In this document: piece after piece, positions 9,950 to 31,961 of the stretch
How the letters are laid out: each line of letters opens with the position of its first letter
Numbering within the stretch: position 1 is the first letter of the stretch
Origin: Luteibacter sp. dw_328
GTDB lineage: Bacteria; Pseudomonadota; Gammaproteobacteria; Xanthomonadales; Rhodanobacteraceae
NCBI RefSeq assembly: GCF_018449605.1
Contig: NZ_JAAVUW010000010.1
Location: forward strand, 124,001 to 188,000
Length of the DNA stretch: 64,000 nt
Reading direction: 5' to 3'
Position numbers and translations under genes: made by a program
Notes under the pieces: generated by a model
The model's database searches: none
What the model was told of the DNA's origin: nothing
Seen by the model: the letters and a program-made list of their open reading frames with translations, nothing else

Positions 9950-9996
9950 GGCTGTGCGGCAAAAGAAAGTTCATCGTGGATTACCGGGACCCGGGC

Positions 9997-10022
9997 GCTC
10001 GGCTTTCGGGCCGAGCTTCTTT
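9997..10022 (+). terminator. Hairpin, probable terminator after the DUF3300 gene
   Basis: GCTCGGC (9997-10003) and GCCGAGC (10010-10016) pair around a six-base loop and are followed by TTCTTT. It lies 47 bases after the stop codon. The T-run is interrupted, so strength is uncertain. Confidence 0.5.
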
Positions 10023-10102
10023 CGCACCTCGCCCACAGCTCGCCTTCGGCTTCGCGGGTGGCTCGGCTCCGCCATCGCTCTCTACACTTGGGCGTCTCGC
10101 GG

Positions 10103-10246
10103 GGAGACCTTGGTGCCCACCCTCGCTGCTCAGACACGTCCTCCGCGTTCGAAAAGGAAGGCCGCTCACGCGGCCCGTGTACCTAACTGGCCTACGGCCG
10201 CTCCACTTGTGCGGAACTCGCCTCGAGGGTGGACACCAAGGTCTCT
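10103..10246 (+). repeat. 144-bp unit A of composite element copy 1
   Basis: The unit ends in ~20-bp terminal inverted repeats: AGACCTTGGTGCCCACCCTC at the left, and the same sequence with one change at the right, read on the other strand. An internal stem GGCCGC/GCGGCC sits at 10160-10175. Halves also share the flank GCTCAGACACGTCCTCCGCG. Confidence 0.85.
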
Positions 10247-10488
10247 CACGACGATACGGTCAGCGGGAAGGAGAGCCGTTGGCGTGGGTGTGGCCGCCCA
10301 AGCGGACCGTTACGGCGGTCGTGCTGGCATGTCATTTCCGGCTCGGTGAGCCTTCGTACCCACCGCGCTGCCTCGCGAGGACGACCGCGACCGGCGCGAC
10401 GCGGTTGACCGTTCCGCGATGCCGACGAGCCAGCAGCCGAAGCGGCGTTGCTTCGTCGGCTCGACCCGCGCGAACCTCAAGGATGGGA

Positions 10489-10632
10489 AGAGTCTTCGGT
10501 GCCCATCCTCGAGGCGAGTTCCGCACAAGTGGAGCGGCCGCAGGCCAATGAGAACATGGTCCGCGCAGCGGACTTTCCGGTACGAAACGCGGAGGACGTG
10601 TCTGAGCAGCGAGGGTGGGCACCGAAGGCTCT
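10489..10632 (-). repeat. 144-bp unit B of composite element copy 1
   Basis: Inverted relative to unit A and related to it over the full 144 bp. Terminal inverted repeats are of the type CTTCGGTGCCCACCCTCG with two changes between ends. The internal stem is GTCCGC/GCGGAC (10559-10573), a compensatory variant of the stem in unit A. Confidence 0.85.
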
Positions 10633-10666
10633 GCGCCGCGACGTCCACGTAATTCCGCGATGAACC

Positions 10667-10696
10667 AAAAAAGGGCCCGGCATATGCCGGGCCCTT
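10667..10696 (-). terminator. Rho-independent terminator of zwf
   Basis: A 26-bp perfect dyad, AAGGGCCCGGCAT and its complement, at 10671-10696, followed on the minus strand by six T residues (10672-10667). It lies 22 bases after the zwf stop codon. Confidence 0.88.
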
Positions 10697-10718
10697 CGTT
10701 CAAGCGAACGCGACGCTG

Positions 10719-31360: not shown

Positions 31361-31435
31361 AAGGTTCTTCGCGGAATGCCGGGGACGCCGAAGACGGTGA
31401 GGCGCAGAGCCTTCGGCGTGTAGACGTGGCGGCGC

Positions 31436-31579
31436 AGAGCCTTCGGTGCCCACCCTCGCTGCTCAGACACGTCCTCCGCGTTTCGTACCGGAAAGTCCGC
31501 TGCGCGGACCATGTTCTTATTGGCCTACGGCCGCTCCACTTGTGCGGAACTCGCCTCGAGGGTGGGCACCGAAGACTCT
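31436..31579 (+). repeat. 144-bp unit B' of composite element copy 2
   Basis: Terminal inverted repeats CTTCGGTGCCCACCCTCG at both ends; internal stem GTCCGC/GCGGAC at 31495-31509. Almost identical to the reverse complement of unit B (10489-10632). Confidence 0.85.
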
Positions 31580-31817
31580 CCCGGACCCTGAGGTTCGTGT
31601 GGGTCGAGCCGACAAAGCAGCGCCGCTTCGGATGCTGGCTCGTCGGCATCGCCAAACGGTCGACCCCAGCGCGCTGAGATCGTCCGCGAGTCAGCGCAGC
31701 GGCGAGGAAAACGCTCGCCGCGCCGGAAATGACGTATCTGCACGACCGCCGTAACGGTCCGCTTGGGCGGCCACACCCACTCCAACGGCTCTCCTTCCAC
31801 TCAACCGTATCGTCGTG

Positions 31818-31961
31818 AGAGACCTTGGTGTCCACCCTCGAGGCGAGTTCCGCACAAGTGGAGCGGCCGTAGGCCAGTTAGGTACACGGGCCGCGTGAGC
31901 GGCCTTCCTTTTCGAACGCGGAGGACGTGTCTGAGCAGCGAGGGTGGGCACCGAAGGCTCT
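31818..31961 (-). repeat. 144-bp unit A' of composite element copy 2
   Basis: Nearly identical to the reverse complement of unit A, with internal stem GGCCGC/GCGGCC (31889-31904). Its right end carries the CTTCGG variant of unit B rather than the CTTGG of unit A, so the two end types have recombined. Confidence 0.85.

Follow-up and report, generated by a model that had tools for sequence, protein, structure and literature searches.

A probable non-autonomous ISL3-type element carrying facing, putatively RNA-encoding units in Luteibacter sp. dw_328

The DNA analysed here (the window) is a stretch of 64,000 nucleotides, positions 124001-188000 of contig C2, from the 5.05-Mb genome of Luteibacter sp. 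dw_328 (G000; the own genome below). It contains two copies of a composite repeat, the first of which lies next to a glucose-6-phosphate-dehydrogenase-like gene. This copy had been described from its letters alone (the sequence-only reading) as an ordered structure at 10103-10632, made of two facing 144-bp units. These coordinates hold for the units but are too short for the element, which extends over approximately 9968-10666. The features of the two copies are as follows.

9968 to 10666, no strand assigned: the whole element, 699 bp, with outer inverted repeats at both ends; the site is empty in seven syntenic relatives.
9968 to 9987, plus strand: left outer terminal inverted repeat of ISL3 type, AGTTCATCGTGGATTACCGG, with 2 mismatches to the consensus; insertion sequences (ISs) of the ISL3 family have similar ends.
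9988 to 10102, no strand assigned: left outer arm, partly conserved among own-genome copies (26 copies aligned in one orientation, 16 of which were displayed).
10103 to 10246, minus strand: unit A, a 144-bp unit, predicted to be structured; the favoured RNA strand is minus, i.e. leftward, away from the spacer.
10247 to 10488, no strand assigned: spacer, variable between copies and species.
10489 to 10632, plus strand: unit B, an inverted copy of unit A; the favoured RNA strand is plus, i.e. rightward, away from the spacer.
10633 to 10646, no strand assigned: right outer arm, short in this copy; repeats of about 30 bp occur there in some other copies.
10647 to 10666, minus strand: right outer terminal inverted repeat, GGTTCATCGCGGAATTACGT when read on the minus strand, with 2 mismatches.
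10670 to 10697, minus strand: terminator-like hairpin of 12 pairs, belonging to the glucose-6-phosphate-dehydrogenase-like neighbour gene; the element sits in its T-tract.
31363 to 31961, no strand assigned: second window copy, with its left outer repeat at 31363-31382 and units at 31436-31579 and 31818-31961.

The symmetry of the first copy was borne out for the units and their ends. Units A and B are inverted and face each other, with complementary arms at 10183-10246 and 10489-10552 (64 nt, 88%) and, further out, at 10099-10149 and 10586-10636 (51 nt, 90%). Each unit also has the inverted ends ascribed to it (10104-10125 with 10224-10245, 95%; 10489-10511 with 10610-10632, 91%). The core of these ends, GGTGCCCACCCTCG, is found nine times in the window when up to 2 mismatches are allowed, against 1.2 expected, and eight of the nine matches are ends of this element and of the second copy (~31436-31961). 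A long hairpin had been attributed to the spacer as well; there, no inverted repeat was listed, and folding is ordinary for the composition (z -1.05, with 30 of 200 shuffled sequences folding equally well or better). In several species the spacer edges share, by eye, a GGCTCTCC...CCTCA-like block that immediately precedes each outward-read RNA. Structure prediction from 21 sequences gave no fold for this block, which could be a promoter or binding site; a promoter scan of the window element found no sigma-70-like promoter.

The region had been considered devoid of open reading frames and of a transposase. Mechanically listed reading frames do cross it, but a simple gene caller based on codon usage, applied with a score cut, leaves the interval between the units without a called gene in all 30 own-genome entries, and the statement that no transposase lies inside stands with this result. 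In the second window copy no outer repeat was found at the right end, so that its right boundary is not delimited, and no tandem array was reported; a scan for repeats of the TGTGGGAGC type in the window gave none. Among own-genome copies (e.g., L004 and L013) the number of ~30-bp repeats in the right outer arm varies, and this repeat contains the outer strand of the terminal stem (CCGAAGGCTCT).

A search of the own genome with a query of 546 bases gave 26 matches that span 500 bases or more of it, both window copies counted, and partial and single-unit copies occur in addition. Five contigs (C2, C4, C11, C16 and C20) start inside the element with their first bases. Thus, the true copy number is probably above 26, and the element is a likely cause of assembly breaks. 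Copies beyond the window are therefore many, and nothing found points to the decayed protein gene that the sequence-only reading had kept in mind. Such a gene was rejected as the origin of the units given that their length (~140-149 bp) varies by single bases, that their pairs covary (see below), and that no gene is called between them.

A DNA search gave matches in 13 of 22 other genomes of the same genus (barely so in G019) and in none of 18 genomes outside it. With a covariance model of the unit, by which the family can now be searched for, 15 of 23 Luteibacter genomes match, including G012 and G021 weakly. Under stricter filters, a family-wide sample yielded matches in 9 of 147 genomes, all of them Luteibacter (one of 26 genera). 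An exact search for one 21-base variant of the unit among 84,980 species genomes gave 33 stretches, every one of them in OK325. Nothing resembling the element was found in a plasmid collection searched in a distant mode, and viral contigs contained no match to one exact 21-base pattern.

When copies are turned to one orientation, conservation runs past the units and the consensus end reads GGTTC(A/T)TCGCGGA(A/T)TNCCGG. With up to 2 mismatches this outer repeat has 40 matches in the own genome, compared to 0 for a reversed control, and 39 of the 40 are located at unit-bearing copies according to their coordinates. Among 102 element entries taken from the own genome, OK325 and other species, some elements having been fetched twice, both outer repeats are present in 33, one in 47, and none in 22. 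Many element ends adjoin the T- or A-tract of a terminator-like hairpin. The 8-bp flank is at least 75% A+T at 98.2% of 113 repeat-bearing ends, compared to 1.5% of the 8-mers of the window.

Removal of three re-fetched entries from the 33 left 30 distinct elements for a test of target duplication, in which the control consisted of right flanks shuffled between elements. The two flanks agree at 183 of 240 positions, compared to 108.7 +/- 13.5 after shuffling (the best of 10,000 shuffles reached 158). At least six of the eight positions match in 23 of the 30 elements and all eight in 6, the window copy itself matching at 4 of 8. Within the 33 entries the flanks are discordant in one (L036, T-rich versus A-rich), and in two others one flank is neither T- nor A-rich. 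L050 is a single-unit element of 323 bp with proper repeats and a perfect 8-bp duplication.

Ends of this kind at the same kind of T-tract site are found in ISL3-family ISs from five genomes or plasmids, four of which show an 8-bp duplication. In a profile search of the 23 Luteibacter genomes, a strong ISL3 match was obtained only in G014, where the protein (L091) matches the ISL3 transposase family (PF01610, E 8.7e-48) as well as helix-turn-helix and zinc-ribbon families. The ends of this IS, located on two separate contigs, contain GGTTCATCGCTGATAACCG on the left and GGTTCATCGTGGAATACCGG (reverse complement) on the right, both beside a T-tract. Four annotated ISL3 elements of plasmids were read, from 15 records listed of 3,234 matching; they belong to Pandoraea, Cupriavidus taiwanensis (NZ_CP016951.1, with ISRta1 as its annotation), B. 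anthina and C. basilensis. Similar ends are present in each of the four, with 16-17 of 22 bases shared between left and right, and each is flanked by a T-tract of which 8 bp are duplicated (TTTTTTTA, CTTTTTCT, T8 and T8). As ends and T-tract site are of the kind seen in ISL3 ISs, we regard the window element as a non-autonomous, MITE-like element of ISL3 type. The sequence-only reading knew of no named family that fits. This has been superseded as far as the transposase family is concerned, whereas on the RNA side it still applies: Rfam 15 gave no match at gathering score across the whole window, and a relaxed threshold added four matches below that score, at the right end and the neighbouring terminator, with none over unit A.

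A source of transposase was looked for in the genus. PF01610 is matched weakly in nearly every Luteibacter genome by profile search. In the own genome the weak match (L105) sits in a 397-aa desaturase-like frame, whose histidine motifs we take to be those of fatty-acid desaturases, and the idea of a domesticated ISL3 transposase was rejected. Apart from this desaturase-like gene, neither the profile nor the G014 protein detected an ISL3 transposase in the own genome. This is the main gap in the account, because some copies look very recent: L026 and L027, at unrelated sites of the own genome, show 100% identity along 509 bp, and L005 and L006 are 99.8% identical, in both cases with flanks that show no similarity. 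G020 has a short PF01610 match with a stop, and short fragments in G008 and G012 were matched by the G014 transposase as query. The G008 sequence at G008:C1:3621005-3621256, which resembles a short piece of an ISL3 transposase and contains a stop, adjoins an outer repeat with 3 mismatches and is possibly a remnant of the partner IS.

The glucose-6-phosphate-dehydrogenase-like neighbour was located in 22 genomes, and about 1,500 bases downstream of it were examined. Units follow this gene in the own genome only. The second neighbour is retained at 8 of the 22 loci (own genome, G006, G010, G019, G015, G009, G017 and G005), which gives seven syntenic relatives without the window element, i.e. the absence from orthologous sites that had been proposed as a check of mobility. 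The remaining 14 loci show only that units are absent, because the second neighbour was not detected there. At two of the empty sites (L203 in G006, L204 in G010), repeats of the GTGGGAGC... type were observed beyond the terminator. Comparison of copies, ends and sites demonstrates mobility into terminator T-tracts by what is, as judged from DNA sequence, a non-autonomous element of ISL3 type.

Gene context was determined with the codon-usage gene caller. In the own genome, 17 of 30 entries lie between convergent, 12 between tandem and 1 between divergent genes; in OK325, where some of the 31 entries are parts of one element, the numbers are 14, 16 and 1. As a baseline, adjacent genes of the window form 46 pairs, of which 10 are convergent, 25 tandem and 11 divergent. 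Both window copies lie between convergent genes. These positions might suggest that the unit is a cis-acting, direction-independent 3'-end structure and that the element serves its neighbours, which are often convergent, by insulating or stabilising their 3' ends. However, terminator targeting by itself predicts a convergent shift, as a gap between convergent genes contains the ends of both and a divergent gap that of neither; the convergent excess is therefore no evidence for a host function. In addition, the strand favoured by the units is that of the second unit met by a read-through transcript. We consider this explanation rather unlikely. In the parts of one report covered here, ISL3 elements are over-represented between tandem, not convergent, genes (PMC9208149), and 12 of 20 matching places in it contain nothing on terminator targeting.

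The units were aligned as RNA from 94 self-chosen loci at E <= 1e-15, a threshold that leaves out divergent partners, so that the alignment represents canonical units only; 150 of 152 matches were aligned, of which 123 are distinct. The modelled fold would be multi-branched with four helices, namely a terminal stem, a conserved 6-bp stem and two hairpins. Among the 123 distinct units 98.5% of the pair cells hold, compared to 92.2% after shuffling and at most 48% with slid partners. The covariation score is 0.188 versus 0.065, none of 500 shuffles being as high and slides reaching at most 0.048; these shuffle counts are not probabilities, since the aligned units are related to one another and were fitted to the model. 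Fifteen pairs show changes on both sides.

A preference for one strand can be read from the cells that depart from canonical pairing. On the outward strand there are 228 G-U cells versus 37 A-C cells. Without the terminal pair and a U-G pair that is fixed in all 123 cells, the numbers become 96 versus 4; the terminal pair itself contributes 9 G-U and 33 A-C cells as well as other mismatches. On the opposite (inward) strand the numbers are reversed. The test is the cleaner for the fact that a C-to-T change on one strand is a G-to-A change on the other. Two further hairpins lie outside the unit; in 23 arms of G003, G011 and G008 their departing cells are 3 G-U and 0 A-C, which is weak support for the same preference. 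Single folds of three units gave z values of -8.8, -7.0 and -6.6 outward versus -5.9, -6.1 and -6.6 on the other strand, the outward strand thus being better in two and equal in one. The covariation analysis called for by the sequence-only reading hence describes a structured unit with a strand preference, and each unit probably encodes a structured RNA that is read outward from the spacer.

The terminal stem pairs at 99.4% of positions within a unit versus 91.1% across units, and pairing within is better in 40 of 45 elements. This bears on the view that the pair is a passive hitch-hiker, neutral filler of a MITE-like element that is homogenised by gene conversion of its inverted arms. By eye, there seem to be copies in which a core typical of one unit occupies the opposite side, suggesting that conversion does take place. 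Conversion alone, however, would produce neither compensatory changes within a unit nor strand asymmetry, nor would it raise pairing within units above pairing across them, and we hold a purely passive role to be very improbable.

The arrangement of units was compared in four genomes of other species (G003, G011, G001 and G008), with opposite-strand duplicates dropped. All 73 pairs of neighbouring units within 3 kb face each other, like those of the window, and 43 of 189 matches have no partner within that distance. Paired units often differ strongly in their score against the model. The constant facing orientation, near both ends of a mobile element, would also be expected if the units act as DNA, either as folded single-stranded hairpins or as protein-binding sites for transposition or replication of the element. 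Such a role would explain why one unit is frequently present per side, and single-stranded DNA, like RNA, tolerates G-T better than A-C. Against it, no unit was found in six cognate ISL3 loci (L091, L114 and L252-L255), and single-unit elements with proper repeats exist, such as L050 with its perfect duplication. A role of the units as DNA appears improbable to us.

Gaps between the facing units measure 318-616 bp in 56 of the 73 pairs and more than 616 bp in 17, of which 11 were inspected. These larger gaps contain IS110-type transposases (PF01548) at two loci, an IS30-like gene at two loci (one was scanned, giving HTH_38 and rve), an IS3-type OrfA (HTH_Tnp_1), two DUF6624-type genes, one of which scores below the Pfam cut-off, and two genes to which Pfam gave no match. 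Pairs that enclose genes could indicate that facing units delimit a gene-carrying composite, serving as a vehicle for cargo genes. The 56 shorter gaps speak against this, the IS genes within pairs are more simply explained as later insertions, and no cargo-bearing pair has been shown at a new site, so that the chance of such a composite seems slim. IS110-type and IS30-like genes lie between or inside units at L183 and L199 (G001, G003) and at L188 and L189 (G008); from the reading frames it seems that the two IS30-like copies have inserted into the unit at nearly one place, as if it were a preferred target. At L184 (1342-1797, G001) a gene with a Tlde1 domain (PF10908, 1.3e-23) lies between two facing units.

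The outer boundaries in these four genomes, inspected by eye at 54 flanks, are formed by GGCTCGCC... or adjoin repeats that we take to be REP-like and of GTAG type; no clear duplications were seen at these flanks. In G003, G011 and G008, the ISL3-type repeat has 41 matches when up to 3 mismatches are allowed, and no unit match is located less than 1 kb from any of them. As ISL3-type repeats and units lie apart there, the history of the unit pair is not tied to one transposon end. At L195 (G003:C1:1251541-1252239) the arms are longer by about 110 bp on the outer side, where they continue as inverted repeats that contain small hairpins.

The sequence-only reading had left the choice between a non-autonomous mobile element and a structured RNA gene, and both are supported at once. 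ISL3 ends, 8-bp duplications, the empty site and identical copies at unrelated sites argue for the former, covariation and strand asymmetry of the units for the latter. We therefore favour a non-autonomous transposable element of the ISL3 family that carries a twin RNA cargo, with a probability of roughly 0.7. According to this reading, a transposase supplied in trans would recognise the outer repeats of ~20 bp and place the element next to the hairpin of an intrinsic terminator, within its T-tract, where about 8 bp would be duplicated. Given such entry and duplication, hairpin and T-tract would stay on the entry side and the neighbour genes would probably be spared. The cargo would consist of two inverted copies of a structured RNA of ~144 nt, each folded on the outward strand; as the units are mirror images, either direction of transcription should yield one copy of the functional strand. 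Selection on the RNA most likely keeps the units intact while spacer and transposon ends change between species.

It is most likely that the units act as RNA, judging from the pattern of substitutions, be it as an outward-transcribed small RNA or as a stable 3'-end structure. To assign a specific function to this RNA would be a guess, with the odds against any one proposal. A wider reading is that of a new class of structured bacterial RNA, which occurs mainly as mirror-image twins in mobile elements; the twin module, combined with ISL3 ends in one Luteibacter group and with others in G001, G003, G008 and G011, would then be the selected unit and may aid its own spread or the host. This reading is tentative, and we would give it somewhat less than an even chance.

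Bacterial miniature elements are commonly viewed as little beyond a pair of transposon ends. In the present case the interior is found again in species with differing outer ends, folds on one strand and is mostly present as a facing pair, so that a miniature element living on RNA cargo is now a testable idea. The link to ISL3 suggests why the element is tolerated: with a terminator T-tract entered and duplicated, the neighbour genes should stay intact.

Among known systems, the ISs related to ISRta1 (the 'ISRta1 group' is our own label) share the outer repeats (GGTTC(A/T)TC...CCGGGGAA-like), the T-tract target and the 8-bp duplication in all four plasmid elements. They differ in that the window element has no transposase and contains 144-bp units that are not found in these ISs. 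Integron attC sites, which we presume to have GTTRRRY...RYYYAAC ends and to stand in direct orientation in arrays, were rejected by reading, given unit ends of the AGAG(C/T)C...G(G/A)CTCT-like type and inverted pairs.

MITEs and the TIMEs and TIME-COMP structures are similar in being short and non-autonomous, in having terminal repeats, and in their capacity for mobilisation in trans and for framing cargo, according to the parts of PMC4133298 considered here. There, TIMEs are derived from Tn3, with 38-bp Tn3-type repeats and 5- or 6-bp duplications, and those parts mention no covarying RNA pair for them; assignment to the TIMEs was rejected, as repeats differ and duplications are of ~8 bp. The same parts define MITEs as about 30-300 bp long. 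The window copy measures 699 bp and the 33 entries with both repeats range over 291-819 bp, and for this reason we call the element 'MITE-like'. REPs, BIMEs and REPINs are likewise intergenic palindromic repeats in many copies, with alternating orientation in BIMEs, but in the passages covered REPs are 20-40 bp (PMC3116915, PMC3733652, PMC2817692), compared to a unit of ~144 bp that is predicted to be multi-branched and is accompanied by ISL3-type ends and target duplications. The unit is thus too long for a plain REP, as had been suspected, and a plain REP, BIME or REPIN was rejected on this ground. A MITE of Porphyromonas gingivalis has an internal minisatellite, a repeat array comparable to the right outer arm of some copies; facing structured units are not mentioned in the parts of that paper considered (PMC4596501). 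Among the matches listed from open-licence literature, titles and abstract openings describe neither this element nor a terminator preference of ISL3, those listed for one query do not name Luteibacter, and 'ISRta1' gave no match. In sum, the vehicle is of a known kind, a MITE-like derivative of ISL3, while for its twin-RNA cargo there is a sizeable chance of a new RNA class.
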